NCBI GenBank assembly: GCA_023253615.1
Contig: JALRFZ010000545.1
Coordinates: 1-14,709, forward strand
Direction of reading: 5' to 3'
DNA: 14,709 nucleotides
DNA from: Verrucomicrobiales bacterium
GTDB lineage: Bacteria; Verrucomicrobiota; Verrucomicrobiia; Verrucomicrobiales; DEV007
The translations under genes and the position numbers were made by a program. Below the pieces are notes generated by a model. The model had not been told where the DNA came from and ran no database searches. It saw only the letters and a list, made by a program, of their open reading frames with translations. Of the stretch, positions 1,874-14,709 are shown one piece after another. Each line of letters starts with the position of its first letter. Within the stretch, counting starts at the first letter, position 1.

Positions 1874-1929
1874 GATGGGTTTGAAACAATCCCGTCCGCG
1901 GGGCGGGGAGTGCCGGAAATTCGATGTCT

Positions 1930-3477
1930 TCATGGTCTTGGCCGGCCCCGCTCATACATCGCGAGGATTTCCAAAGGAGAACAGGCGGTGCCCTGGATCA
2001 GGAATTCATCGATGGCACCGTTCAGGTTCCTCACCGGAAACTGGTGGCCCTCGGTCGGCAAGCCCCAGTTGCCGATTTCACAGGGGCCGAAGACAACCTC
2101 CCGTCGCGGCACGTGGAGGGCCGACACCCCGCGACCGACTTCATTTCCATCGAAGTATTGGACCACTTCTCCGCTCTCCCCGTCATAGGTGACCGCGAGA
2201 TGATGCCAGCGCCCGAGACTCTCCGCTGTGAAGACCGGACGCGAGAAATACATCTGGTTCCATTTCCCCGTCCGTTCCCCACCCTCCGGCCGGTAGATGA
2301 TCGAAAACATCAGACTGCCGTCCTCGTAGATCTGCCAGTGCGGTTCACCGTTCTCATATCCGTCGGTCAGGAGCAGCGAATTGTATTTCTTGTCGACACT
2401 GTCCACTTTCACCCAACAGGCCAGCGTGATCGCCTGATAGGTGCCTTCGAGATTCAAGCGGACACGGTCGCCGGGCCGTTTGAATTCGAGAGCATCTTTT
2501 TGCGGCCAACGTCCCTCCGTCCACCGGACTCCCACCGCGCCACCGGCACGCGAAGGCACCCGCGGCTCAGCCGCGTTGCGCACCAGCCTGTCCCACCGGT
2601 CGTCCCCGGGACGCTCCATCGGATAATAGCCGATCACCCCGGGATCCCGTGCGACCTGTTGTGACCAGGATTGCCAGTCCCGGTAGCGGCTCTCCGCCCG
2701 GGAGAGGCGCTGTCCGGCGAGATCCCCCAGAGGGAGAAACGAGCCTGGCGTCACCGGCAGATCTCCGTGCGCCAGGGACATGCCATCGGTCAGGCTCTCG
2801 GGGGCTTTCACTCCCGTGTGGGCGATCACTTCCCCTTCGAAGACATGCACGTCGGACGCACCATCCCTCACGTTCAGGGCGAATTCCGTACCCAGATCCT
2901 CCAACTTGAGATCCGGCGAATAGACCAGAAATCCCTTCGCCGCCGGCGGCACCCTCACCCGGATCCTGCCGGAAAGACAACGGACCTCCCAGGCCGAGAT
3001 CACCTCCAGTTCGGCCCTGCCCTCGGCCAGGAGCGTTGCGCCGCTGAAAAACTCAATCTGGGCGAGGCCTGATTCGAGATTCACCCGTCCCGGCACAAGG
3101 GTGTCTCCGGCGCGGAGCCCGTCACCGGAAAACACCGCGTCCATGGTTTCACCGAGCATGGCCACGCCCGAGGAGACGCTCTCGTCCTCCGTCGCCGGAC
3201 GGCTCATCCAGAAAGCACCCGACACCACGATCGCTGCCGCCGCGGCAAGAATGGCAAGCACGACGGGACGCGTGCGAGTCTTCCTCCGCGCCGCCACCGA
3301 CGTGATCCTTCCGGTCGAAACGCTCGGTTCGCGGAGGAGCCGCGCGTGGAGATCGGCGAGCTCGAGATACAGCCGTCTTGCCTCCCAATCGTCTCGCAGG
3401 ATGGATTCGAGCCGTTCCCGTTCCTCCGGAGAGATTTCCCCATCGAGGCATGCGTGGATGAGCGATCCGGGATTCAT
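1930..3477 (-). CDS. FecR/LamG-domain membrane protein, putative anti-sigma regulator
   Basis: 515 aa. Residues 1-50 are a short acidic/helical cytoplasmic segment (LDGEISPEERERLESIL, typical of anti-sigma-like FecR proteins). Residues 71-91 form one transmembrane helix. Residues about 100-240 are a FecR-type domain (GDTLVPGRVNLESGLAQIEF, then LEDLGTEFALNV and VFEGEV). Residues about 325-510 are a LamG/concanavalin-like fold (ITLACWVKVDS, RWHHLAVTYDG, YFDGNEVG, LNGAIDEF). The ATG at 3477 is chosen because it overlaps the sigma-factor stop as ATGA and has GGAGGGG about 5 nt upstream. An in-frame extension further upstream would run through the sigma gene and is rejected. The topology suggests a periplasmic sensor or carbohydrate-binding module coupled to the sigma factor encoded just before it. 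That role is inferred from gene order, not shown directly. Confidence 0.88.
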   Translation of the reverse strand: MNPGSLIHACLDGEISPEERERLESILRDDWEARRLYLELADLHARLLREPSVSTGRITSVAARRKTRTRPVVLAILAAAAAIVVSGAFWMSRPATEDESVSSGVAMLGETMDAVFSGDGLRAGDTLVPGRVNLESGLAQIEFFSGATLLAEGRAELEVISAWEVRCLSGRIRVRVPPAAKGFLVYSPDLKLEDLGTEFALNVRDGASDVHVFEGEVIAHTGVKAPESLTDGMSLAHGDLPVTPGSFLPLGDLAGQRLSRAESRYRDWQSWSQQVARDPGVIGYYPMERPGDDRWDRLVRNAAEPRVPSRAGGAVGVRWTEGRWPQKDALEFKRPGDRVRLNLEGTYQAITLACWVKVDSVDKKYNSLLLTDGYENGEPHWQIYEDGSLMFSIIYRPEGGERTGKWNQMYFSRPVFTAESLGRWHHLAVTYDGESGEVVQYFDGNEVGRGVSALHVPRREVVFGPCEIGNWGLPTEGHQFPVRNLNGAIDEFLIQGTACSPLEILAMYERGRPRP

Positions 3478-4010
3478 GCGAGCCCCTCCGTTTCCAAATG
3501 CCGGGTGACACAGTCGTGCAGACGCCGCCGCAGCCCCTCGAGATTCCGGAACAAGGTGCGGCGGCTCAGGGAAAAGCGCCGCATCATCGACTCGGCACTT
3601 TCGTGGCGCGCGTAGCGGCTCGTGAGAAGCGCGCGGTCGTCCGGTGTCAGTTTTTCCAAACAACGATCGAGGAGACGCAGACGTTCCTCGAGCACCGGCT
3701 CGTGTCGTTCGCGCTCCGCGGCGAGCAGATCGATGACGTCTTCGCTGAAAAGCAGGGGCGAACGCGACGACTTGCCGCGGTGCTTCTGCACCTGCAGATA
3801 GGCGAATCGATAAGCCCACGGCAGGAAGGGACGCGCCGGATCATATTGGTCGAATTTCCTGAACAATGCCACACTGGTCTCCTGCAGGATGTCCTTTGCA
3901 TCCGCCTCCACCGGCACCAGACTGAAGATGTAACGGAAGAGCCGCTCCTGATGCTCCGTGAGAAGCAAAATGAGGGATTCCGTGGAGGATTTCTGGGGTT
4001 CGCCGGACAT
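3474..4010 (-). CDS. ECF RNA polymerase sigma factor, PVC-type
   Basis: 178 aa, the usual ECF length. Region sigma-2 covers about residues 19-90: LFRYIFSLV, the DILQET core-binding motif, then FLPWAYRFAYLQVQKHR. Region sigma-4 covers about 110-170: LEKLTPDDRALLTSRY followed by the helix-turn-helix SMMRRFSLSRRTLFRNLEGLRRRL. The protein resembles the Rhodopirellula/Verrucomicrobium family of small sigma factors that sit next to FecR/LamG genes. GAGG lies about 11 nt before the ATG at 4010, so the ribosome site is weak. The stop overlaps the next ATG by four bases, so the sigma factor and its probable membrane regulator are likely translated together. It would be expected to direct expression of its own operon and perhaps of related cytochrome genes. 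Confidence 0.92.
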   Translation of the reverse strand: MSGEPQKSSTESLILLLTEHQERLFRYIFSLVPVEADAKDILQETSVALFRKFDQYDPARPFLPWAYRFAYLQVQKHRGKSSRSPLLFSEDVIDLLAAERERHEPVLEERLRLLDRCLEKLTPDDRALLTSRYARHESAESMMRRFSLSRRTLFRNLEGLRRRLHDCVTRHLETEGLA

Positions 4011-4031
4011 GAAACGTCTTGCCTCGTCAGG

Positions 4032-4056
4032 ATTATCCCCGGATTCCGCCTCCGGG
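4032..4056 (-). promoter_or_regulatory. Possible promoter with embedded inverted repeat upstream of the sigma gene
   Basis: Reading the minus strand, a GATAAT hexamer (4032-4037) lies 22 nt before the sigma ATG. It is immediately preceded by a perfect 6-bp inverted repeat, CCCGGA (7-nt loop) TCCGGG, at 4038-4056. CTGGCA lies just upstream of the repeat, but 19 nt from the hexamer, which is a poor -35 spacing. The palindrome would sit in the spacer, where a regulator could bind. This is a motif-level suggestion only; it could equally be the 3' hairpin of the dehydrogenase transcript from 4093-5016. Confidence 0.25.
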
Positions 4057-4092
4057 TGCCAGAATTTTTTGCCAAATCACTCCTCCCCAACC

Positions 4093-5016
4093 TCACGCGC
4101 CCGTCTCGTAAATCCGGAACAGTCCCGAGTGATCCAGATCTCCGTGACCGAGTTCGTGCACGAAATGCTCCCAAAGTTGTCTCGAATTCGCAAGCGTCGA
4201 TGACTTCAGCCCGACCCGTTCGGCCAGTTCGCTCATGAGCCGGACGTCCTTCAACTGCAGCTCGCTCCGCCCCCCAGGGGCAAAGTCGCGCCGCACCATG
4301 CGGTCGCCGTGCAGCTCGAGGATGCGGCTTTCCGCGAAGCCGCCGCGCAGGGCCTCGCGCACGAGCGCCGAGTCGACGCCCGCAAGCTCCGCCAATCGCA
4401 GCGCCTGCGCCACCGCGTCGATCGTCTGGGCAACGATGAGTTGGTTCGCCAGCTTCGTCACCTGGCCTGCTCCCTGCGCGCCCATGTGCGTGACCTTGCC
4501 TCCGACGACCTGGAGCACTGGCAGGACCCGCGCGAAGGTCGCGGCTTCGCCCCCGGCCATGATCGTGAGATTTCCCGCCTCCGCACCGACCTGACCTCCC
4601 GACACCGGGGCGTCGATCCATTGACCGCCCCTCGCACGGATGCGTTCGGCAAAAGCCAGCGTCTCGCTGTATCCGGTCGTGCCGAAGTCGATCACGACCA
4701 CACCGGGGACGATGACCGGCTCGATCCAGTCCACGACCGAGGCGACGACCTCGTTGTGGGTGAGGTTGAGGCAGATCACGCCATCCCCCGCCCCCGCCCC
4801 CGCCCCCGCCCCCGCCCCCGCCGCCACCGCCGCGGCCACGGCCCCGGGATCGGACGCGACATTCATGCCCCGCTCCGCGGCGAGACGGGCGCGGGCTTCG
4901 CTGCGGTTCCACACCGTCATCTCCGCACCCGCGTCCTGGAGGTGCCGCGCCATGGGCCAGCCCATGTTGCCGAGTCCGATGAATCCGATCTTGTGTCCTG
5001 CGAGGGTTTCGCTCAT
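4093..5016 (-). CDS. NAD(P)-dependent 3-hydroxyisobutyrate-dehydrogenase-family oxidoreductase (beta-hydroxyacid dehydrogenase; LtnD possible)
   Basis: 307 aa, normal for the family. The Rossmann dinucleotide motif GFIGLGNMG lies at residues 11-19, with MARHL after it. The substrate-binding signature WIDAPVSGG is at 133-141. The catalytic lysine is Lys-188 in GQVTKLANQ. The all-alpha C-terminal domain follows (SELQLKDVRLM). The enzyme should oxidise a hydroxyacid using NAD(P). It is divergent from a DenD-like gene only 42 bp away, and L-threonate dehydrogenase (LtnD) belongs to this same family, so a role in four-carbon acid catabolism is plausible, though the substrate cannot be read from sequence. 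AGGG lies 7 nt before the ATG at 5016. An Ala-Gly run at about residues 66-78 comes from a GGGGGC hexamer array and enlarges a loop that is normally short. Confidence 0.9.
   Translation of the reverse strand: MSETLAGHKIGFIGLGNMGWPMARHLQDAGAEMTVWNRSEARARLAAERGMNVASDPGAVAAAVAAGAGAGAGAGAGDGVICLNLTHNEVVASVVDWIEPVIVPGVVVIDFGTTGYSETLAFAERIRARGGQWIDAPVSGGQVGAEAGNLTIMAGGEAATFARVLPVLQVVGGKVTHMGAQGAGQVTKLANQLIVAQTIDAVAQALRLAELAGVDSALVREALRGGFAESRILELHGDRMVRRDFAPGGRSELQLKDVRLMSELAERVGLKSSTLANSRQLWEHFVHELGHGDLDHSGLFRIYETGA
4785..4820. repeat. Six perfect CCCCCG hexamers (GGGGGC on the coding strand)
   Basis: Six uninterrupted 6-bp units span 36 bp inside the dehydrogenase gene and encode alternating Ala-Gly. 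Each unit is two codons, so gain or loss of units keeps the frame and only changes loop length. The coding strand has runs of five G separated by single C, which could form a G-quadruplex. Degenerate GCC-rich sequence continues to about 4836, suggesting an older, partly decayed array. Confidence 0.9.
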
Positions 5017-5058
5017 CTTCGCACCCTAACTGTTTTTCCCTCAGGAACAAGATACCGA
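5017..5058. promoter_or_regulatory. Short divergent promoter region between the two dehydrogenase genes
   Basis: Only 42 bp separate the two start codons, so promoters for both genes must lie here or inside the opposing coding sequences. No convincing -35/-10 pair is visible on either strand. AGGG is placed 7 nt before the minus-strand ATG. AGGA lies about 12 nt before the plus-strand ATG. The arrangement suggests shared control. Confidence 0.4.
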
Positions 5059-6066
5059 ATGAAAGTGGTCATTACCGGCGGCGGAGGTTTCCTCGGCAGC
5101 CAACTCGCAAAACGCCTCCTCGAACGCGGTGCCCTCACCGGTCCCTCGGGATCCCCCGAGCCGATCGATTCCATCGTGCTCTTTGACGCCCAGTTCGCTC
5201 CCTCTGTTGAAGCCATGGCCACCCAAAAGGGTCAAGCGATCGACCTGACCCTGTTGACCGCCGACATGGGCGACCGCGACGCCGTCTTTGCCGCGATCGA
5301 CCGCGACGACCTCGCCGTTTTCCACCTCGCTTCGATGGTCAGCGGCGAATGCGAGCAGCGCTTTGACGACGCGATCCGCGCGAATCTCGACGGAGGCCGC
5401 CACCTCCTTGAGGCCCTGCGCCAGCGCGAGGGCCTGCCCCGCATCGTCTTCGCGAGCAGCGTCGCCACCTACGGAGGTCCCGACATGCCCGACCGGGTCA
5501 GCGACCTCACCAAACGCACCCCGCAGACCACCTACGGGATGACCAAGGCGATCATCGAGCTGATGATCAGCGACTACTCGCGCAAGGGCTTCCTCGAGGG
5601 ACGATCCGCGCGCCTTCCCACCATCATCATCCGTCCCGGAAAACCCAATGCCGCGGCCTCGAGCTGGGCGAGCGGGATGTTCCGCGAGCCGCTCAATGGC
5701 GAACCGTGTTACCTGCCCGTGCATCGCGACCAGTGCCATCCCGTGCTCGGGTATCGCGATGTGATCGAGTCCTTCATCGCTCTGCACGAGGCCGATCCCT
5801 CCGTGCTCGAGCCCGACCGCGCGTATGTGTTGCCGAGCCACCGCATCACCGTGGCCGAGGGGTTGACGGTGATGGAGCAGGTCGCGGCCGAGTTCGGGAT
5901 TCATCCCGGGCTGGTCATCGATGATCCGAGCCCGGTGATCCAGGGGATCGTTGATACCTGGCCCACGGCAACGGATGGGAGCCGTGCGTTGAAGATCGGC
6001 GTACCCCAGCCCAAGCCGCTCGCGGAGATCGTGCGGGATTACCTGCGCGATTTTGTGGTGACGTGA
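5059..6066 (+). CDS. denD: NAD-dependent epimerase/dehydratase-family SDR, D-erythronate dehydrogenase-like
   Basis: 335 aa, an extended SDR. The nucleotide-binding motif TGGGGFLG is at residues 6-13, VFHLASMVSG at 88-96, catalytic Ser in FASSVATYGG (131-140), and the active-site YxxxK is Tyr-159/Lys-163 (TTYGMTKA). The segment RLPTIIIRPGKPNAAASSWASG (about 185-206) with FREPLNGE is characteristic of DenD proteins rather than of generic UDP-sugar epimerases. DenD oxidises D-erythronate to 2-oxo-tetronate, which OtnK and OtnC (or OtnI) process further; those partners are not in this window. The frame is open upstream through the opposing gene, but homology begins at MKVVITGGGG, so the ATG at 5059 is used. 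A G10 tract follows directly after the stop. Confidence 0.87.
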   Translation: MKVVITGGGGFLGSQLAKRLLERGALTGPSGSPEPIDSIVLFDAQFAPSVEAMATQKGQAIDLTLLTADMGDRDAVFAAIDRDDLAVFHLASMVSGECEQRFDDAIRANLDGGRHLLEALRQREGLPRIVFASSVATYGGPDMPDRVSDLTKRTPQTTYGMTKAIIELMISDYSRKGFLEGRSARLPTIIIRPGKPNAAASSWASGMFREPLNGEPCYLPVHRDQCHPVLGYRDVIESFIALHEADPSVLEPDRAYVLPSHRITVAEGLTVMEQVAAEFGIHPGLVIDDPSPVIQGIVDTWPTATDGSRALKIGVPQPKPLAEIVRDYLRDFVVT

Positions 6067-6076
6067 GGGGGGGGGG
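6067..6076 (+). repeat. G10 homopolymer directly after the denD-like stop codon
   Basis: Ten consecutive G residues follow the TGA at 6064-6066. The tract is outside the coding sequence, so slippage would not alter the protein. It marks the left edge of the repeat-filled convergent gap. Confidence 0.85.
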
Positions 6077-6119
6077 ACGTTCCAGGAACGCCCGTCGGAA
6101 GCGTCGCCGCTTCCGCTAC
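6077..6119. repeat. Dispersed hairpin repeat, copy A
   Basis: Two palindromes lie in tandem. CGTTCC-A-GGAACG spans 6078-6090. An 8-bp stem CGGAAGCG / CGCTTCCG with a TCGC loop spans 6096-6115 and ends in CTAC. The 17 bases at 6102-6118 (CGTCGCCGCTTCCGCTA) recur exactly in copy C. Its location between convergent stop codons suggests it may also act as a transcript-end hairpin, although no U-tract follows. Confidence 0.7.
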
Positions 6120-6146
6120 TGCTGACGCGTTCATCGGAGCGAAAAC

Positions 6147-6170
6147 GTAGCGGAACGGGCTACCGTTCCG
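6147..6170. repeat. Dispersed hairpin repeat, copy B (inverted relative to A and C)
   Basis: GTAG is followed by a perfect 8-bp stem CGGAACGG / CCGTTCCG with a GCTA loop. The start, GTAGCGGAA, is the reverse complement of the TTCCGCTAC end of copy A, so this copy lies in the opposite orientation. Confidence 0.7.
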
Positions 6171-6183
6171 ACCGATCGTCCAG

Positions 6184-6219
6184 GGACGTCCGACCTCGGA
6201 AACGTCGCCGCTTCCGCTA
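6184..6219. repeat. Dispersed hairpin repeat, copy C
   Basis: It opens with the palindrome GGACGTCC (6184-6191). The stem CGGAAACG / CGCTTCCG follows, with the same TCGC loop as copy A and one A-C mismatch. It shares 17 identical bases with copy A (6203-6219), differing just outside (CTAT in place of CTAC). It ends 8 nt before the stop codon of the minus-strand Gfo/Idh gene. Confidence 0.7.
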
Positions 6220-6227
6220 TGCCTTTC

Positions 6228-7280
6228 CTACCCTGCGAATTCCTCCATCCAGACCGTTTCCTTCCGACGGATCGACTCCTGCGCGGCAAGGCAGACGGCG
6301 ACGGCGCGACGGGCGGAGGCGCCGTCGTTGAGGGGCACGCGGTCGTGCCGGAGGCATTCGAGAAAATGCTCGAGCTGCGGTTTGATCCCGCGGTCGATGC
6401 GACCGGAGCTGTCAACGAAGTTCGCGGCGTCGCCCTCATCGGCGATCTGCATCACGGCACGCTCGGGTGTATCAAATCGATGATGGACGAGCTCGAGGGC
6501 CTGGTTGCGCGTGTCGATGCGGCCCTTGTCGCCGCAGGCGCCGATCTCGCAATCGCCACCCTTCGGCGCGAACAAACACAACTCGAGCGAGGCGCGGCGT
6601 CCGCCCTCGTATTCGACGAGGATCTGGGCGTTGTCGAGAATCTCGCGGTCTTTCAGCACGTTCGTGCCGCCGTGGGCGCTGACGCGGACGGGGGCGCAGT
6701 CCATCATCCAATTGAAGAGGTCGAAATGGTGCACGTTTTTCTCGAGGATGGCCCCGCCCGTGACCGCCTCGCTGGAGCGCCAGCCGGGACGCATCGGTCC
6801 GCGGAATTCGCGGCACCACATCAGTTGCAGGTCGCCGATCTCGCCCCGGTCGATCATTTCCTTCATGTGCCCGTAGAGACGCTGGAAGCGCATCTCGTGC
6901 CCGATCTGGAGGATGCGCCCGGCATCGGCGGCCGCGGCGATGATGTCGTCGCATTCGGCAAGCGTGAGTCCGAGCGGCTTTTCGCAAAAGACATGTTTGC
7001 CCGCCCGCAGCGCGGCCATCGCGGCGGCGTGGTGCTGGTCGTTGGTCAGGGCGATGACGATGGCGTCCAGATCATCGAGGGCCACGACCTCGCGCCAATC
7101 GGAAAAGGTGCGGAGCACGTCTCCACCGATGGCCTTCGCGGCGGCGAGACTCTCATCACTGCGGCTGCTCGCCGCGGTGACGGCGACGCCATCGAGGGCG
7201 ACGAGATTGCGGAGGTGTGCCTCGCGGCCGAACCAGCCGGCGCCGAGGAGACCGATGCGGAGGGTGGATGAGGATGACAT
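6228..7280 (-). CDS. Gfo/Idh/MocA-family NAD(P)-dependent oxidoreductase
   Basis: 350 aa, the standard length. The N-terminal Rossmann fold shows RIGLLGAGWFGREAHL (residues 8-23). The cofactor/substrate lysine motif CEKPLG is at 99-104. The C-terminal domain holds GWRSSEAVTGGAILEKNVHHFDLFNW (about 166-191), with the His pair expected at the substrate pocket. Members oxidise or reduce sugars and cyclitols, and PVC genomes carry many; the substrate is not predictable here. The ATG at 7280 is chosen because it directly precedes the Rossmann strand; longer in-frame starts add Cys/Arg-rich sequence without family resemblance. It lies 20 nt after the small membrane protein gene and is the last gene of the minus-strand run, but it may be only loosely related to the cell-wall genes upstream. 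Confidence 0.92.
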   Translation of the reverse strand: MSSSSTLRIGLLGAGWFGREAHLRNLVALDGVAVTAASSRSDESLAAAKAIGGDVLRTFSDWREVVALDDLDAIVIALTNDQHHAAAMAALRAGKHVFCEKPLGLTLAECDDIIAAAADAGRILQIGHEMRFQRLYGHMKEMIDRGEIGDLQLMWCREFRGPMRPGWRSSEAVTGGAILEKNVHHFDLFNWMMDCAPVRVSAHGGTNVLKDREILDNAQILVEYEGGRRASLELCLFAPKGGDCEIGACGDKGRIDTRNQALELVHHRFDTPERAVMQIADEGDAANFVDSSGRIDRGIKPQLEHFLECLRHDRVPLNDGASARRAVAVCLAAQESIRRKETVWMEEFAG

Positions 7281-7300
7281 GATTTGGATGGGTTTTGCGT

Positions 7301-7735
7301 TCAAGAGCCGACCAAACAGGGCGTAATCCCTGCGATACCTGCCAGAACAGAGAATCCAGCATGCCTGATCTCCGCCATTCGGAAGACTCCGATCGATCCG
7401 ACGGGAATTTGGTCGGAAAGTTTGCGGGCAAGTCGGCGGGTCCGGAAGAAAAACCATCCGTGCAGTGCGGCAGTGGCAATCAAAACACCATTCAGCCAAC
7501 GCAGGGTCGAGCCCCCATCATCGAACCATGGAATGACCATCACGATGCCGATCGAAAGCATCAATGTGGAATGCAGATACTGAAACCATTTCGGCTCCAG
7601 GGCATCCAGGATGTTCGAAGGAATCCGCTCACGCGATTCGGCCTCGAACCGGTTCCTTCGAATCGTCGAGATGACGAGAAAGACCAATACGCCGAAGGCG
7701 ATCAACGAAATCAGAATTACCCAAACCACGTTCAT
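7301..7735 (-). CDS. Small hypothetical membrane protein (3-4 helices)
   Basis: 144 aa; no family recognised. Hydrophobic segments lie at about residues 3-23, 55-71 and 79-98, with a weaker one at 126-143. Basic residues after the first (IRRNRF) and third (RTRRLARK) suggest cytoplasmic loops. The ATG at 7735 lies one base after the stop of the preceding gene, which is strong evidence for this start and for cotranscription. A longer in-frame start would add an Arg-rich stretch encoded antisense to nothing conserved and overlapping the upstream gene. Base composition is less GC-rich than in the flanking PBP genes. A role with the PBPs is possible from position only. Confidence 0.7.
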   Translation of the reverse strand: MNVVWVILISLIAFGVLVFLVISTIRRNRFEAESRERIPSNILDALEPKWFQYLHSTLMLSIGIVMVIPWFDDGGSTLRWLNGVLIATAALHGWFFFRTRRLARKLSDQIPVGSIGVFRMAEIRHAGFSVLAGIAGITPCLVGS

Positions 7736-7736
7736 C

Positions 7737-8204
7737 TCAAGCGATCGCGCTGGATCTCTCTTCGGGCACGGTCTCTTCCGCCGCCTCCTCCTTCTCCCCG
7801 ACTTCCGTGAGATCGCGTTTCTGCCTCCCCTCTCCCCGCACCGGCCGCTTCCGGAAGACAAAGCGCAGCACCGAGACAACCACATGCATCGCGCAGATCG
7901 CCGTCATTGCGAGCATCAGCATCGTGAAGGGATCGCGGTGGTCGAAGGTCTCTTTCAGATAAGCGGGCAGCATCCGCCCGATCCCGAGTCCCGCACCCAT
8001 GAGGGAGGCGAGGAAGGCGATCTGGAGTCCGGTCTTGCGCAGGAGCAGGGCGATGAGGACTCCGAGGAACATGGCCGCGCCGACGAAGGCGGGAATGGCG
8101 GAGGTCAGGGTCTGTGCGGGTTCGCCGCGATCCTCCCAGCCGTAATACGAGACCGCCCCGACTCCCAGCAGGAGCAACGCGCAGACAAAGGTGAAGATCC
8201 TCAT
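7737..8204 (-). CDS. Small hypothetical membrane protein (4 helices, charged C-terminal tail)
   Basis: 155 aa. Four hydrophobic helices lie at about residues 4-21, 36-56, 59-80 and 92-117. A hydrophilic tail with alternating basic and acidic stretches follows (RKRPVRGEGRQKRD, then EEAAEETVPEE). A Gly/Ala-rich third helix (SLMGAGLGIGRMLP) hints at helix packing. No database family is recognised with confidence; similar uncharacterised proteins occur in Verrucomicrobiota as far as I recall. The gene starts 10 nt after the class A PBP stop and ends 1 nt before the next ATG, so it belongs to the same transcription unit. No Shine-Dalgarno sequence is visible before the ATG at 8204. Confidence 0.8.
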   Translation of the reverse strand: MRIFTFVCALLLLGVGAVSYYGWEDRGEPAQTLTSAIPAFVGAAMFLGVLIALLLRKTGLQIAFLASLMGAGLGIGRMLPAYLKETFDHRDPFTMLMLAMTAICAMHVVVSVLRFVFRKRPVRGEGRQKRDLTEVGEKEEAAEETVPEERSSAIA

Positions 8205-8214
8205 GGCGGTTTTG

Positions 8215-10269
8215 TCAGGGTTCGGATGACGCCGCCACGGGACCTGGTGCGACGACTCCGGCTGCGAGCGTTTCGGCGAGGGGCTGGGCGATCTCGCTGC
8301 CGAAAGCGAGCGGACGGATCGGGCTGAACCGGTCGCGCCCGATCCAGAGGCCCCAGGTATGCGTCCCGCTGAAGCCGAAGTGCCAGGCGTCGGTGAAGGT
8401 CGGGGTGGTGCCGGATTTGCCCCGCGCCCCGGGCACGGCGGAGACGGCGGGCAAAGCCGAGGCGACGGACCGCGCGGTCGATTCCCTCAAGGCCCGCGCC
8501 GGGGCGTTGGCGGAGGGACGCGCCACGACCTTACCGAAGGAATCGCGGATCTCGCGGATGAGCCGGGGAGCGGGCGCGGGAGTGCCGCCGTTGGCGAAGA
8601 CGGTGTAGGCCCGCGTCAGTTCGGTGAGGCTGGCCTCGCTCGCGCCGAGGAGGCTGCCGGGGATCCCGCGGAGCTCGCTGTTGATGCCGCTGGCCCGCGC
8701 GACGCGGCGGAGACGCTCGAGCCCGACGAGCTGGCCGAGTCTGGCCGAGGGTGAGTTTTTGGACTTTGTCAGGGCTTCGGCGGCGGTGATTTCCCCCTCC
8801 CAGCGGTTCGCGGGATTTTCGGTGCTCCATTCGCCGAGGATGCCGCCGACGGCGCCCAGGCCCATCTCGCGGTTGTCGAAGGGCGCGTCGAGCAGGATCG
8901 TGGAGGGCGTGAAGGGCGGATTCTCGTAGGCGGCGGCGTAGAGGAAGGGCAGGAAGGCGGAGCCGGGCGGCCGTTTCATCTCGACGGCCCGGTCGTATTC
9001 GCTGCGCTGGTAATCGCGGCTGCCGACGGAGACGAGGATTTGTCCCGTGGCGTTCTCGAGCAGGACGAAAGCGGCCTCGAGGGGATTTTCCCGTCCGGCC
9101 TCGTCGGCGAGCCCGGCGAGGTGGCGGTCGATCGCCTTGGCGGTCTCCTGCTGGGCGGCGAGATCGACGGAGGTCTCGAGCGTGTAGCCGTCGAGGGATT
9201 CCGGCGGCTCGGGCCAGGTCGCGATCTCTTCGCGCAGTTCACGTTCGATCCGCCCGATGAGATAGGAAATCTGCCCGCGCTTCAGCGAATCCTCTCGCGA
9301 ACTCGCGACCTTCGTCTCCATCGCGAGATAGCGGTCGAAATCCGCGGCGGAGAGTTTGCCGGTCTCGAGCATGCGCCGCAGGGTCTGATCGCGGTTCTCC
9401 TTCGCGCGCACCGTGCTGACAAAGGGCGAATAGCGGCTCGGCGAGGGGATCACGCCGCAGATCAGGGCCGACTCGTCGAGCGTCAGCTCGGAGGCCTTCT
9501 TTCCGAAATATCCCCGCGCGGCGGACCCGAGGCCGTAAAAGCCGCTGCCGAAATAGATGCGGTTCAGGTAGTGGACGAGGATCTCGTCTTTCGAATAGAC
9601 CTCCTCGATGCGGACGGCGGCGGCGATCTCGGAGAGTTTGCGATCGATGTTCCTGCCTTCGAGCCGGTAGACATCGCGGGCGAGCTGCTGGGTCAGGGTG
9701 GAGCCGCCTTCCTTGATCGCTTCGGAACGGAGGTTGGCAAGGGCGGCGCGGAAAGAGCCCACGGGATCGAAGCCGGGATGGACGAAAAACCGCTGGTCCT
9801 CGGCGGCGATGAGGGCATCGACAAAGTGCGGCGGGATGTCTTCGCGGGTGATGAGGACCCGGTTCATCGATCCGGCCCGGCCGATCTCGAACCCCTTCGC
9901 ATCTTTCACGAGCGCTCCGATCCCGGGACGCGCGACGAGCCCGAGATTGAGCTCGGCGCTGCCGTCGAAATAGTACCACCCCACCCCGGCTCCGACGGCC
10001 CCGGCGAGGATGGCGGCATACAAGGGCGTCAAAAACAGGATCTGGAAAAAGAGAATGACGAGGTGCAGCCAGACGGGTCGTTTTTTGAGGGTTTTGTCAG
10101 GCTCGGGTGGAGGCACGGTACCGGCGGCGGCGACGGCCGCCTCTCCCTCCGCCGCCCGGATCTCCTCGGCGATGATGGTGGCAATGTCAGGAAGGCCCGG
10201 CACGGTGCCCGCCGGGGTTTCCTGCCCTTCACGGGAGGGTTCATCCTTCTGGTATTCAGGCTCTTTCAT
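8215..10269 (-). CDS. Class A penicillin-binding protein with intact GT51 domain but altered SxxK transpeptidase motif
   Basis: 684 aa. Residues 1-63 are a cytoplasmic acidic/Pro-rich tail, and about 65-100 are the membrane anchor. The GT51 glycosyltransferase covers about 135-300 with all signatures: catalytic Glu-157 in AAEDQRFFVHPGFD, GGSTLTQQLARD (188-199), RKLSE with Glu-214, and KDEILVHYLNRIYFG. This part should polymerise lipid II into glycan strands. The transpeptidase domain covers about 395-670. SKN (503-505) and KSGTT (618-622) are present, but the nucleophile motif reads PGSAFLPF: Ser-437 is kept and the general-base lysine is Leu-440 (codon CTG, 8950-8952). Cross-linking activity is therefore doubtful. 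The ATG at 10269 shares one base with the upstream PBP stop (TGATG), indicating translational coupling. Earlier in-frame starts lie within that upstream gene and are rejected. Confidence 0.92.
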   Translation of the reverse strand: MKEPEYQKDEPSREGQETPAGTVPGLPDIATIIAEEIRAAEGEAAVAAAGTVPPPEPDKTLKKRPVWLHLVILFFQILFLTPLYAAILAGAVGAGVGWYYFDGSAELNLGLVARPGIGALVKDAKGFEIGRAGSMNRVLITREDIPPHFVDALIAAEDQRFFVHPGFDPVGSFRAALANLRSEAIKEGGSTLTQQLARDVYRLEGRNIDRKLSEIAAAVRIEEVYSKDEILVHYLNRIYFGSGFYGLGSAARGYFGKKASELTLDESALICGVIPSPSRYSPFVSTVRAKENRDQTLRRMLETGKLSAADFDRYLAMETKVASSREDSLKRGQISYLIGRIERELREEIATWPEPPESLDGYTLETSVDLAAQQETAKAIDRHLAGLADEAGRENPLEAAFVLLENATGQILVSVGSRDYQRSEYDRAVEMKRPPGSAFLPFLYAAAYENPPFTPSTILLDAPFDNREMGLGAVGGILGEWSTENPANRWEGEITAAEALTKSKNSPSARLGQLVGLERLRRVARASGINSELRGIPGSLLGASEASLTELTRAYTVFANGGTPAPAPRLIREIRDSFGKVVARPSANAPARALRESTARSVASALPAVSAVPGARGKSGTTPTFTDAWHFGFSGTHTWGLWIGRDRFSPIRPLAFGSEIAQPLAETLAAGVVAPGPVAASSEP

Positions 10270-12350
10270 CAGGGTTCGGGGAAGGAAGGTTCCCCGGGAA
10301 AGGTGCGCGCATTGCGGCGGCCGCCACCGAAGAGGCGACGGAAAAATCCACCCACGCCACCGCCTGGCGTGAGGTCTTCGATGAGCACTTCGGGCGGCAC
10401 GGGTGCGGCGGCGACGATGGCAGAGACCTGGCGCGAAGGCCCCTCGGGCAGGGTCACGGCGTAGGTTTCCGGCTCCTGATAGACGGTGCGCAGCACGCCG
10501 GCGGCGATGGGAGCGGCGCTGCGCCCGCCGCTGAGCGTCTCGTAGCCCTCGCCCTGGGTCACGGCGGCAAAAGCGATGCGGGGGCTCTGCGCGTCCACCC
10601 AGCCGGAGAACCAGGCGAGGTAGCGCATTTTCCCTCCGGTGGCCCACTGCGAGGTGCCGGTCTTGCCGTAGACGACGGGATTCCGCATCGAGGCTCCCCC
10701 GGCGGTGCCCGCCAGGTGATTGACGACACCCCAGAGTCCGTCGCGGATGATGTCGACGTCTTCGGGCCGCAATCCGAGGGAATGCGCCACGGCCGGCTCG
10801 ATGTATTTCACCGCCTCGCCGGTATGGGGGTCGGCGGTTTCACGGACGAGGCGCGGCTTCGGGATGTAGGCCCCGTTGGCGAGCCCGGCCATCGCATAGG
10901 CGAGCTGCACGGGAGAGGAGAGCACCTGACCCTGGCCGATCGAGAAATTCGCGAGACTGCGCGGATCGCCGTAGACGGCGGGATCGGGAATGTTCCCCGG
11001 GGCGACCGCCGGCAGGGGCAGCTCGGGCGCGACCCCGAAGCCGAAACGCCGGCTCACGTCCGCGATCGGCGTCGCCCCCATGTTCAGCGCGGCCTGGTAG
11101 AACCAGGTGTTGCAAGAACGAACGAGAGCGTAACGCACGTCCATCAGCCCCTCCGCGGTGCTGCTGTGGTTTTTGAAATATCGCCCGTCGATGACCATCC
11201 CGGCCGGCCCGGGGAAAAGCGTACGGGTGCCCTTGATGTGGCCCGAGTCCATCCCTGCCAAAGCCACAAACGGCTTGAAGGTCGAGCCGGGCGGATACGC
11301 CCCGGAGACGGCCCGGTCGAAGAGCGGCGCATCCTCGGCCTTGGCGAGGGCGTCGTAGGCGGCCTGGGAGATGCCGCCCTCGAAGAGATTCGGATCGAAG
11401 GTCGGATGAGAGACCATCGCGAGGATATCACCGGTATCGGCATCGACGGCGACGAAGGCCCCGGGCCGGCCGCTGCGTTCGAGCATCCTTTTGGCGAGCC
11501 GCTGCATCTCGAGATTCACGGAAAGGACGACGGTGTCGCCGGGCTCGGCCTCGCGCTCCACTTCCTGATGCCTCACGACGCCCTGCGGATCGATGAGACG
11601 CAACACCTGCCCCTCCCGGCCGCGCCATTCGGCGTCGAGCGACTTCTCCATTCCGGCCCGGCCTTCGGTCGGGGGAAAGGCATGCTCGACCTTGCCGATG
11701 GGCCCGTGCTGGTCGGGCAGGGAGACGCCGATGTAGCCGAGGAGATGGGCGACCAGTTCACCCTCGGGATACTCCCGGACGTAGACCGAATCGAGCGCCA
11801 GATCGGCGGGAAGGACGTCCTCGAGGGCGCAGAGGAACTCATCCGGGATCACCGGCGAGACCGGCAGGGGCAGGCCGGGACGATGTTGGAAATGCCGTTT
11901 GATCTCCTCATCGGTGATCTTCAAAAAAGGAAATCCCTCGCTGAACTCTCCCGCGATCGCCCGGACGCGCGCGACGGCCTCCTCCGCGGTGGCGGATTTT
12001 CCGGAGAGGCGGCAGACGAGTCGTTTGCCGATGTGGTTCTTCGCGAGGATCACCCCGTCCGACGAGACGACGACACTGCGCGGCGCGGGGATGCGGAAGG
12101 TGTGGAGCTGCCAGTCGGCCAGCGAGGTCATCGGCGTGGGGCCGTGATCGATGCGCTCGAGCGGCACCTTCGGCACGGCCTCGTAGGCGGGTCGCGCCGC
12201 GACCGGTGCCGTCGCGGGGCCGGGAACCGCCGGCTCGACCCCTCCGAGCGGGAGACCGGCGCACAAGAAAAGCGCTCCGATCCAAAGGGACCGGTTGCCG
12301 GCGGCGCCGCGACACGCGATCGGACGGCGCTCTGGGTTCATTCTCGGCAT
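10269..12350 (-). CDS. Class B penicillin-binding protein (PBP2-like peptidoglycan transpeptidase)
   Basis: 693 aa from the ATG at 12350 (alternative ATG at 12341; the first is preferred because GGAG lies 12 nt upstream). The N-terminus has a basic stretch and one hydrophobic segment (about residues 21-37) acting as signal or anchor. The PBP dimerisation/pedestal domain covers about 85-270, including REYPEGELVAHLLGYIG. The transpeptidase domain covers about 295-625, with intact SxxK (Ser-356 to Lys-359, PPGSTFKPF), SxN (SCN, 412-414) and KTGT (563-566). The C-terminus is a Gly/Arg-rich tail (GGGVGGFFRRLFGGGRRN). It cross-links peptidoglycan in the periplasm. The fold is closest to PBP2/MrdA, which normally works with RodA; no RodA is present here, and the neighbour is a class A PBP. 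It is the first gene of the minus-strand run. Confidence 0.92.
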   Translation of the reverse strand: MPRMNPERRPIACRGAAGNRSLWIGALFLCAGLPLGGVEPAVPGPATAPVAARPAYEAVPKVPLERIDHGPTPMTSLADWQLHTFRIPAPRSVVVSSDGVILAKNHIGKRLVCRLSGKSATAEEAVARVRAIAGEFSEGFPFLKITDEEIKRHFQHRPGLPLPVSPVIPDEFLCALEDVLPADLALDSVYVREYPEGELVAHLLGYIGVSLPDQHGPIGKVEHAFPPTEGRAGMEKSLDAEWRGREGQVLRLIDPQGVVRHQEVEREAEPGDTVVLSVNLEMQRLAKRMLERSGRPGAFVAVDADTGDILAMVSHPTFDPNLFEGGISQAAYDALAKAEDAPLFDRAVSGAYPPGSTFKPFVALAGMDSGHIKGTRTLFPGPAGMVIDGRYFKNHSSTAEGLMDVRYALVRSCNTWFYQAALNMGATPIADVSRRFGFGVAPELPLPAVAPGNIPDPAVYGDPRSLANFSIGQGQVLSSPVQLAYAMAGLANGAYIPKPRLVRETADPHTGEAVKYIEPAVAHSLGLRPEDVDIIRDGLWGVVNHLAGTAGGASMRNPVVYGKTGTSQWATGGKMRYLAWFSGWVDAQSPRIAFAAVTQGEGYETLSGGRSAAPIAAGVLRTVYQEPETYAVTLPEGPSRQVSAIVAAAPVPPEVLIEDLTPGGGVGGFFRRLFGGGRRNARTFPGEPSFPEP

Positions 12351-12547
12351 GGGAAGTCGCGTCTCCACCCGCGGGCGGGACGTTCCCGAATCGTTTCGGG
12401 TATTCGGGACTGCCAGACTATAACCGGACCGGAACGAGTTCAAGGCGAACCACCGCCGCACGGGGGGATTCTTGCGCCGCCTGCCGAATGCCCTTGGCAA
12501 AACCTTTGGAAGGCGGCAGGGTTTACGTCTTGCCAGATCGCGAAGAC
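12351..12547. promoter_or_regulatory. Divergent intergenic region between the PBP operon and the adenylate cyclase
   Basis: This 197-bp gap must hold promoters for both directions. On the plus side, the cyclase leader (12476-12519) can form competing short stems: GCCGCC (12476-12481) with GGCGGC (12512-12517), or CTGCCG (12481-12486) with CGGCAG (12514-12519), plus an inner TGCC/GGCA hairpin at 12489-12499. No clear plus-strand promoter is seen. The frame of the cyclase stays open through the region, with an alternative ATG at 12488 that would add 20 residues. Confidence 0.35.
12417..12443 (-). promoter_or_regulatory. Candidate promoter for the PBP operon
   Basis: Reading the minus strand, TTGAAC (12438-12443) is followed after 15 bp by TATAGT (12417-12422). 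The -10 matches five of six consensus positions, but the spacer is shorter than the preferred 17. Transcription would begin near 12410 and leave a leader of about 60 nt before the class B PBP. Motif evidence only. Confidence 0.35.
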
Positions 12548-14443
12548 ATGAGGCGGGGACTCCGATTCCAGACCAAACTGATGCTGACCCTCGTCGCCGC
12601 CATCGCGACGGTGACGATCGCCTTGCTCTACGTGACGGAGACGAAGATCAGCCAGACTTATACCCGGCAGTTTTCCCGGAATTTCAGCGACCTCGTCCAC
12701 AAGCTCGAACAATCGCGCGAGGAGCGCTCGCAGGAGTTCCTCGAGCTGAGCCGGCGTCTCGCCGCCCATCCCTACGTCATTTCATCGCTGAAAAACACCA
12801 CGACCTCCGACGAGGGCCGTGCTTTCTGGCGGTTCTACCTCGAGGCCCTGAACGAACTCGACAAAGATCCCGCCAAGGCCGCCATCTCCGATGACAAGCC
12901 GCAGACTTCGGCCGCGGACCTCATCCCCCGTTTCGGCTCGATCGGTCTCGTCGATCCCGGGGGCGAGATCCGCACCCTGCATCCGCCGATCGGGAACGGG
13001 GACCGCGAAGGCGACAAAAGACGCGTGTCGAGCCCACGGTTCCGCAAGAGCCCGTCGGGCGTGAACCGTGCCAAAAAACGCATCGACGAGCTGCTCGCCA
13101 GCCAGGTGCAGGAGACCCTCTTCCTCCCCTTCGAGACTCCCGATGGCACCGGATTCGTGCAGGAGATGGTGAGCACCCCGGTGAAGGACCCCGCGACCGG
13201 CGAGCTGCTCGGCCTTTTCCTCCGCGCCACCTCGGCCGAGACCGAGACGCAGCGTTTCCTCGAGCGTTACCAGGAGGAATTCCAATCCGACACGCCCCTC
13301 CTCACCGGCATCTTTCTCGACGGGCAGGTCTACTCGCGGGCGATCGAGCCGGAGAAAGCCGCGATCATGAGCCAACACCTCGCGGAGAGGATCGCCCGTC
13401 ACCCCGACCTGTCCGGCGGCGAGGATCTCGCCTTCGAGGAAGAGCTGCAGGGAGTGCCCTATCGTTTCTACGTGAAACAGATCGGTCATGATGAAGGCAC
13501 CGCCACCGCCTTCCAGGTCAGCGCTTTCTCTCTCGCCCCTCTGCAGGCCGATCTCGCCGAGCTGCGCCTGCGCGGCAGCGGCGTCGGGATCGCAGCCCTC
13601 TTCGCGGGGATCCTCATCGCCTGGCTCTTTTCGCGCCGCCTCGCCGTGCCCATCGCCGAGCTGACACGCGCGACACGCGCGGTGCGCGACGGCCGGCTCG
13701 AGACCCGCATCGACGTCCGCAGCCGCGACGAAATCGGCGATCTCGCCGAATCCTTCAATGAAATGACCGAAGGGCTCCAGCAACGCGACGCCTATCGCAG
13801 CATCCTCGGCAAGGTCAGCGACGAGACCGTGGCGCAGGCGATGATCAGCGGTCACCTCGATCTCGAGCTGGGCGGGGAATTGAAGAACGTCTCCGTGCTC
13901 TTCTGCGACATCCGCGGTTTCACCTCGCAGACCGAACACATGCACCCGACCGAGGTCATCGGCCTGCTCAATGAGCACATGACGGCGATGACGGCGATCG
14001 TGCGCAAACACTATGGCGTCGTCGACAAATTCGTGGGCGACGAGATCATGGCTGTCTTCGGCGCGCTGAAATCCTATGGAAACGACGCCGACCACGCCGT
14101 CGCCTGTGCCCTCGGGATGATCGCCGAGCGCGAGCGGCTGAACCGCACCGCCGCCCACCCCATGCTCATCGGCATCGGTCTCGCCACCGGCGAAGCCGTG
14201 GCGGGATGCATGGGATCGGTCGATCGTCTCAACTACACCGTCGTCGGCGCGCGCGTGAATCTCGCCTCGCGCCTCTGCTCCGAAGCCGGCGCGATGGAGC
14301 TGGTCATCGACGACCAAACCCTCTCAGGTCTCGGGCCCGACAGGGTCGAGTCGGAGGCCATCGAGGACCTGAGACTGAAAGGCTTCTCCGCGAATGTCGT
14401 CGCTTATCGGGTGCGGGAGAGGGCGGCGGCGGCGGTAACGTAG
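12548..14443 (+). CDS. Membrane-bound class III adenylate cyclase with periplasmic sensor and HAMP domain
   Basis: 631 aa. A basic start (MRRGLRFQTK) precedes the first helix (residues 11-29). A periplasmic sensor of about 310 residues follows, dCache-like in size and layout. The second helix lies at 344-361 and the HAMP linker at about 361-413 (RRLAVPIAELTRATRAV, DEIGDLAESFNEM). The cyclase domain covers about 444-620. Metal-binding Asp-454 (FCDIRGFT) and Asp-498 (KFVGDEIMAVFG) are present, as are the transition-state pair Asn-571 and Arg-575 (VNLASRL). Lys-494 and Thr-564 occupy the base-specificity positions, the Lys/Thr pair of class IIIb adenylate cyclases, many of which respond to bicarbonate. 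It should make cAMP in response to an extracytoplasmic signal. The ATG at 12548 is chosen for the classic basic-hydrophobic N-terminus. The Ala-rich C-terminus runs straight into a dispersed repeat that supplies the TAG stop. Confidence 0.92.
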   Translation: MRRGLRFQTKLMLTLVAAIATVTIALLYVTETKISQTYTRQFSRNFSDLVHKLEQSREERSQEFLELSRRLAAHPYVISSLKNTTTSDEGRAFWRFYLEALNELDKDPAKAAISDDKPQTSAADLIPRFGSIGLVDPGGEIRTLHPPIGNGDREGDKRRVSSPRFRKSPSGVNRAKKRIDELLASQVQETLFLPFETPDGTGFVQEMVSTPVKDPATGELLGLFLRATSAETETQRFLERYQEEFQSDTPLLTGIFLDGQVYSRAIEPEKAAIMSQHLAERIARHPDLSGGEDLAFEEELQGVPYRFYVKQIGHDEGTATAFQVSAFSLAPLQADLAELRLRGSGVGIAALFAGILIAWLFSRRLAVPIAELTRATRAVRDGRLETRIDVRSRDEIGDLAESFNEMTEGLQQRDAYRSILGKVSDETVAQAMISGHLDLELGGELKNVSVLFCDIRGFTSQTEHMHPTEVIGLLNEHMTAMTAIVRKHYGVVDKFVGDEIMAVFGALKSYGNDADHAVACALGMIAERERLNRTAAHPMLIGIGLATGEAVAGCMGSVDRLNYTVVGARVNLASRLCSEAGAMELVIDDQTLSGLGPDRVESEAIEDLRLKGFSANVVAYRVRERAAAAVT

Positions 14444-14472
14444 AAGCGGCGTCCCGCCGCTTTCCGGGCTAC
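14440..14472. repeat. Dispersed hairpin repeat, copy D, in a convergent gap
   Basis: GTAG, then a perfect 8-bp stem AAGCGGCG / CGCCGCTT (14444-14462) with a TCC loop, then TCCGGG and CTAC. The terminal GTAG/CTAC matches the ends of copies A and B, while the stem sequence differs. The TAG stop of the cyclase lies within the repeat's first bases. Six bases further on is the stop of the convergent NHL gene, so the hairpin is well placed to act as a bidirectional terminator. Confidence 0.6.
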
Positions 14473-14477
14473 TGACC

Positions 14478-14709
14478 TCACGACACCTTCCGCAGCTTCG
14501 AGATCCGCCCGGTATCGACCCACTCGGCGACGAAGATGTTCCCCGCCGCATCGAAGCAGGCGTCGTGGGGATGCACGAATTTCCCGGAGACCCAGCCGGA
14601 GGGATTTTTCCGCATCGCCATCTTGTCCTCGAGCACGGCCTTCCGCCATTCGGGATCCTCGCCGAGGTGGATCATCCGGTTCTCCTTGTCGAGCAAGGTG
14701 ATCCGCGCG
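14478..14709 (-). CDS. NHL-repeat / six-bladed beta-propeller protein, C-terminal fragment
   Basis: Only the last 76 residues are in the window; the gene continues beyond 14709. The visible part contains RITLLDKENRMIHLG, then FVHPHDACFDAAGNIFVAEWVDTGRISKLRKV before the TGA. The HPHDACFD...GNIFVAEW...GRISKL pattern is the final propeller blade found in NHL-repeat proteins and in peptidyl-alpha-hydroxyglycine-lyase-like proteins, common in Planctomycetes and Verrucomicrobia and often exported. Function cannot be set from the fragment. It converges on the adenylate cyclase with 34 bp between the stops. Confidence 0.8.
   Translation of the reverse strand, partial: ARITLLDKENRMIHLGEDPEWRKAVLEDKMAMRKNPSGWVSGKFVHPHDACFDAAGNIFVAEWVDTGRISKLRKVS

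Follow-up and report, generated by a model that had tools for sequence, protein, structure and literature searches.

A penicillin-binding protein (PBP) gene of a Verrucomicrobiales bacterium, pPBP1, lies on contig JALRFZ010000545.1 of assembly GCA_023253615.1, whose positions 1 to 14,709 (forward strand, 14,709 nucleotides in all) are referred to below as the window. Its product has the architecture of a class A PBP, with a GT51 glycosyltransferase (GT) domain followed by a transpeptidase (TP) domain, and the TP domain reads Ser-Ala-Phe-Leu where the catalytic Ser-x-x-Lys (SxxK) motif is expected. The loss is a conserved feature, wider than one protein's missing lysine: it runs through a family, here called GxxGEW after its signature, and in the branch of the window it accompanies a class B PBP gene, bPBP-p, encoded directly upstream. 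We consider that pPBP1 and bPBP-p probably constitute a dedicated two-protein synthase, in which a GT51 polymerase with a pseudo-TP domain is combined with class B cross-linking in trans. The direct basis for this reading is fourfold: the absence of an intact SxxK, purifying selection on the TP domain, its intact predicted fold, and constant adjacency to and co-inheritance with the class B PBP.

Pfam recognizes both halves of pPBP1 (Transgly, E 1.7e-55; Transpeptidase, E 3.9e-20), and a long helix predicted at residues 66-106 is probably a membrane anchor. Two phmmer alignments against PBP1A chains of solved structure place SAFL ungapped on the SxxK of the chain, so that the missing lysine is no alignment slip; moreover, the TP-domain fold is intact in the predicted structure. 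The sequence-only reading of the window had the local facts right: the SAFL codons, the retained SKN and KSGTT motifs and the complete GT51 half, whose catalytic motif residues are invariant, are all as it described them (Table 1), and the change from Lys to Leu indeed takes at least two base substitutions (AAG to CTG). It had also judged a sequencing error unlikely. The assembly is fragmented (5.0 Mb in 802 contigs, 84.7% complete), as would suit an error or a recent mutation confined to one genome; however, the orthologue alignment that the same reading had named beforehand as the test of its claim lacks the lysine in all 18 Ser-type rows, the window being one of them, with SAFL, SAFF, SAFI, SAIF or SSFL at the motif. 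Since these orthologues, collected from 56 relatives (among the matches listed) and from named genomes (11 loci), come from many other assemblies, that explanation is refuted and its probability practically nil.

Alignment of 20 divergent members without SxxK revealed invariant TP residues around G-x-x-G-E-W-[GS]-x-E. The DNA pattern of this signature matches 55 of 383 genomes in a sample of the phylum (at least 90% complete, plus the own genome of the window, which is counted), against 2 genomes for the reversed control; by taxon, counted by hand, the matches fall in 46/52 genomes of the same order, 9/92 of other orders of the class and 0/239 of other classes. A slightly wider pattern matches 47 of the 58 genomes of the taxonomic family and, in a sample of 384 genomes from the class, 127 (reversed controls 2 and 1, respectively). 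Such matches, which were read in part (at most 30 loci from each search, together with separately retrieved regions), include doubtful members, like one of the two in genome G320, which encodes GLLGEWCGE, and the pattern misses variants such as locus L095 (GLAGEWG) in G053. A literature title search, outside whose coverage most subscription journals lie, found no publication on the family.

Readable members number 115, made up of 88 distinct frames, for which frames sharing one 45-letter stretch were merged (the window being represented by a close relative, L065), and 27 of 28 further loci; the latter are unmerged (L250 and L253 would merge under the 45-letter rule), and the excluded L249 starts inside the domain. 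An intact SxxK is found in none of the 115, which, the signature having been built on members lacking the motif, means that the two were not met together in any frame read and leaves an intact ancestor possible; conversely, all 24 signature-less frames of a 62-frame set have SxxK. The serine position is occupied by Thr in 96 members, Ser in 17, Phe in one and Met in one, and a lysine at the fourth position is present in 27, all with Thr and none among the 17 with Ser. Motif letters were counted by alignment, as for L138 (TAFF), L203 (TVFK) and L035 (SAFL). SxxK-like strings picked up by a regular expression in four signature rows (L038, L041, L089 and L047) were taken as matches elsewhere in the frame, the aligned motifs being TAVL, TAVL, TAIL and TTIA, respectively.

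In a tree of the 88 signature rows and 8 canonical ones, the signature rows form one clade without intact SxxK (support 100, starred) that divides into two moderately supported branches (94 each). Branch I comprises 64 rows, all with Thr and 19 with Lys; branch II, that of the window, comprises 24, of which 17 have Ser, five Thr and two another residue (Phe, Met), and the 17 Ser rows are again one clade (99, starred). Parsimony over the 96 rows, canonical ones included, requires 4 changes at the serine position and at least 8 at the lysine position. The simplest history is probably a basal exchange of Ser for Thr, followed by repeated changes of the lysine, with Ser regained in the clade of the window while Lys stayed absent; possibly, the old Ser instead survived, with parallel losses. 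What the sequence-only reading described as one protein losing one lysine is thus one branch of a family, and the loss of the Lys is a trait of that branch (Lys in 0/24 rows) and not of the whole family, the older change probably being that from Ser to Thr, beside which the 27 relatives keep their Lys. A single loss of Lys in the family, first read from a 62-row tree, was dropped after these T-x-x-K relatives turned up. In that class A PBP tree, which includes the window itself, all 38 rows without SxxK lie on one side of a branch (99, starred). A GT51-only tree of 61 rows speaks against a single origin, in that the rows without SxxK are ungrouped and need 2 changes, with 1 change in 4% of bootstrap trees; its base is poorly resolved, with long branches meeting, and one origin conflicts with none of its starred branches. 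Support for a single origin accordingly comes from the full-length trees.

In SxxK enzymes, the lysine of the motif acts as general base when the serine is acylated. Judged by its motifs, the TP half of pPBP1 is very likely incapable of canonical catalysis; a Thr, Phe or Met in place of the serine should likewise hinder acylation, Thr being the least certain case. To this extent the predicted inactivity of the domain stands; the suggestion that it might bind penicillin does not fare as well, such binding being doubtful without the lysine. Catalysis could persist if the general base for Ser437 had shifted to another residue, such as the lysine of SKN, and if Thr were the nucleophile in the T-x-x-K relatives: Ser437 is kept in 17/17 rows of its clade, and 19 T-x-x-K rows retain S-x-N in 17 cases and K-T-G-T in all 18 with letters. 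Yet Thr, Phe and Met also occur at the serine position in the wider branch of the window, SxN is degraded in most Thr rows without Lys (SKI, GKN and others), and we know of no SxxK enzyme with a naturally occurring Thr nucleophile, all of which renders continued catalysis distinctly improbable. The T-x-x-K relatives (19 rows: L129, L202, L203, L205-L207, L211, L213, L215, L219-L221 and L225-L231; a further 8: L234-L236 and L238-L242) may possibly be natural threonine PBPs. Retention of Lys was compared with that of SxN or KTG by independent pairs, 5 for each motif.

The TP domain of pPBP1 is under purifying selection and is not decaying, which agrees with the sequence-only reading, where its retained fold and motifs were taken to suggest selection. 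In three close comparisons, its ratio of non-synonymous to synonymous substitution rates (dN/dS) is 0.095-0.115, versus 0.092-0.095 for an active paralogue. A decaying relic, retained merely through fusion to a needed GT51 domain, would be in keeping with two further measurements, namely a fourth and more distant pair (G000-G032), with dN/dS of 0.284 for pPBP1 and 0.198 for the paralogue, and a median TP/GT distance ratio of 1.52 versus 1.35; but the match to the active paralogue near 0.1 in the close pairs, the untruncated state of full-length members and the presence of lineage-specific invariant residues within the domain make this very improbable.

The class B PBP upstream, absent from the sequence-only reading, is the strongest clue to the function of pPBP1. 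Such a gene lies directly upstream in 24/24 branch II loci whose upstream sequence is available; 21 of these junctions were resolved by script, those of G014, G032 and G027 are adjacent by tblastn coordinates, the G018 locus was assigned from the first 222 aa of pPBP1, which a contig end cuts short, and in G021 and G016 the junction is hidden by contig ends. Stop and start overlap (TGATG or ATGA kind) in 6 of the 21 resolved junctions. Among the matches listed, from whose scores absence in the remaining genomes was judged, a class B PBP of the partner type and a branch II pPBP1 occur in the same 22 of 56 genomes. In a 51-row class B PBP tree, a single clade (97, starred) unites the 26 paired rows (including G021 and G016, where adjacency is unseen) with three unpaired paralogues; 29/29 of its members keep both SxxK and KTGT. 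Pairwise distances of pPBP1 and partner correlate with r=0.98 over 22 rows.

Table 1. Features of pPBP1 and its neighbours in the window
Feature	Position	Strand	Remarks
pPBP1, class A-type PBP (GT51 and pseudo-transpeptidase)	8215-10269	minus	684 aa; ATG at 10269, stop at 8215
SxxK position, residues 437-440, SAFL	8950-8961	minus	codons TCC GCC TTC CTG
Family signature GILGEWSTE, residues 476-484	8818-8844	minus	pattern match and conserved alignment columns
SxN motif, SKN	8755-8763	minus	kept
KTG motif, KSGTT	8404-8418	minus	kept
GT51 motif EDQRF	9787-9801	minus	its E and D invariant in a 33-row alignment
bPBP-p, class B PBP (PBP_dimer and Transpeptidase)	10269-12347	minus	PPGSTFKPF and KTGT intact; start set by homology, open frame extends to 12500
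TGATG	10267-10271	minus	stop TGA of bPBP-p overlapping ATG of pPBP1
155-aa hydrophobic protein	7737-8204	minus	downstream of pPBP1, same direction; no match in Pfam or NCBIfam

Several observations weigh against a dedicated synthase, in addition to the higher dN/dS of the distant pair and the larger TP/GT distance ratio. In a 10-genome subset, the correlation of pPBP1 with its partner (r=0.96) is only slightly above that with MrdA (0.91), from which it follows that most of the correlation of the pair reflects common descent. Three paralogues of the partner, L168 (G000:C197), L169 (G010) and L170 (G001), have no pPBP1 adjoining; their motifs are intact, and in the tree they make up a clade of their own within that of the partners. 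Adjacency and co-inheritance, moreover, are no proof of interaction. Finally, in 31 neighbourhoods of branch I no class B PBP adjoins, save for a 234-aa stretch in L131; as the dead or Thr-type domain is found there without such a neighbour, it must have some role beyond docking an adjacent class B PBP. This last point also suits a different function, in which the pseudo-TP domain is a sensor or clamp: stem peptides (or beta-lactams) would bind to it without a covalent bond, and it would control the GT51 domain of the same chain, with the class B neighbour co-expressed but not physically associated. Ligand binding would agree with the motifs of the Ser-type clade of the window, which has SKN in 15/15 rows with letters and, at the KTG site, K-S/N-G-T in 10/12 and Q-S-G-T in 2/12, SxN and KTG both being variable across the wider family. 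The constancy of the class B neighbour finds no explanation in a sensor or clamp, however, and we regard this reading as unlikely.

For the preferred two-protein synthase, we infer the GT activity, the dead TP domain, the binding of pPBP1 to bPBP-p and the role of the domain. The GT51 half of pPBP1 would polymerise lipid II, and bPBP-p would cross-link the new strand in trans; the pseudo-TP domain, performing no chemistry, would dock or allosterically couple bPBP-p, or hold the nascent strand. As its GT51 half is intact, pPBP1 likely has strand polymerisation as its net activity, for which a constant class B neighbour with intact chemistry is a natural source of cross-linking; and a dead domain kept under selection most likely couples polymerase and cross-linker.

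Downstream of pPBP1, a homologue of the 155-aa hydrophobic protein is found at the same place in several orthologous loci, which suggests that this protein may be a third member of the unit. Further along the window, a 3-hydroxyisobutyrate-type dehydrogenase (positions 4093-5016, minus strand; PF03446, PF14833) carries an Ala-Gly repeat (AGAGAGAGAGAG) near its N-terminal third. Beside branch I, a divergently oriented gene family is present in 18 of the 31 loci (for example L092:7236-8441); the two scanned examples, in L092 and L129, are PF02636 methyltransferases, and the branch I neighbours give no clue to function.

The own genome of the window encodes six GT51 proteins and five class B PBPs, and its two SEDS genes sit on contigs other than that of pPBP1. 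Four of the GT51 proteins have SxxK (C364, STFK; C705, SVFK; C223, STVK; C353, STLK) and two lack it, pPBP1 and C713 (TAFM), so that counts of class A PBPs by domain matches overstate the cross-linking enzymes of these bacteria. By definition, a class A PBP combines two activities and is a target of beta-lactams; the GxxGEW family, with its signature in the 127 genomes of the class mentioned above, departs from this definition and offers natural material on the non-chemical roles of a TP domain, on the coupling of GT51 polymerases to class B transpeptidases and on whether Thr can stand in for Ser in the SxxK superfamily. More tentatively, and with somewhat less than even expectation, one might picture an old family in Verrucomicrobiota whose first step was the exchange of Ser for Thr in a class A PBP, its T-x-x-K members perhaps being threonine transpeptidases or substrate clamps; one branch would then have lost the Lys and become the GT51 half of a two-gene class B synthase, a counterpart of the SEDS-class B synthases. 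If so, the polymerase of this synthase should escape acylation by beta-lactams.

Among the closest known systems are the bifunctional class A PBPs (the PBP1A family, TIGR02074, and solved PBP1a and PBP1b). An intact SxxK, which is required of these enzymes, is replaced in pPBP1 by SAFL, with SxN and KTG present; pPBP1 also has the GxxGEW signature and scores 410.3 against the NCBIfam model PBP_1a_fam (TIGR02074), below the cut-off of 508.75, which the T-x-x-K relative L129 exceeds (514.6). Lacking the intact SxxK, pPBP1 is a variant of class A PBPs and not a bifunctional one. Monofunctional GT51 enzymes (MtgA, TIGR02070) share its predicted net activity, polymerisation only, but pPBP1 retains a whole TP domain, folded in the model, and scores 125 against their cut-off of 182.65. 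In the SEDS-class B PBP synthases, FtsW-FtsI and RodA-PBP2, polymerase and cross-linker likewise reside on two chains, as would be the case here with the class B PBP encoded adjoining; unlike theirs, the polymerase of the pPBP1 pair is GT51 rather than SEDS and carries a pseudo-TP domain, any complex with bPBP-p being predicted from the genes. In Staphylococcus aureus, the GT of the class A PBP2 works with the TP of the acquired class B PBP2a, an arrangement similar to that suggested for pPBP1, except that the TP of PBP2 is blocked by the drug rather than lost in evolution and the genes are no fixed pair. Class A and class B PBPs also form a complex in the PBP1-PBP3 system of Clostridioides difficile, where one PBP domain is reported to have a non-catalytic role: growth requires the class A TP, which is active, whereas it is the class B partner that acts non-catalytically (PMC12154710); in the pair described here, which is read from its genes, the class A TP is predicted to be the non-catalytic side.
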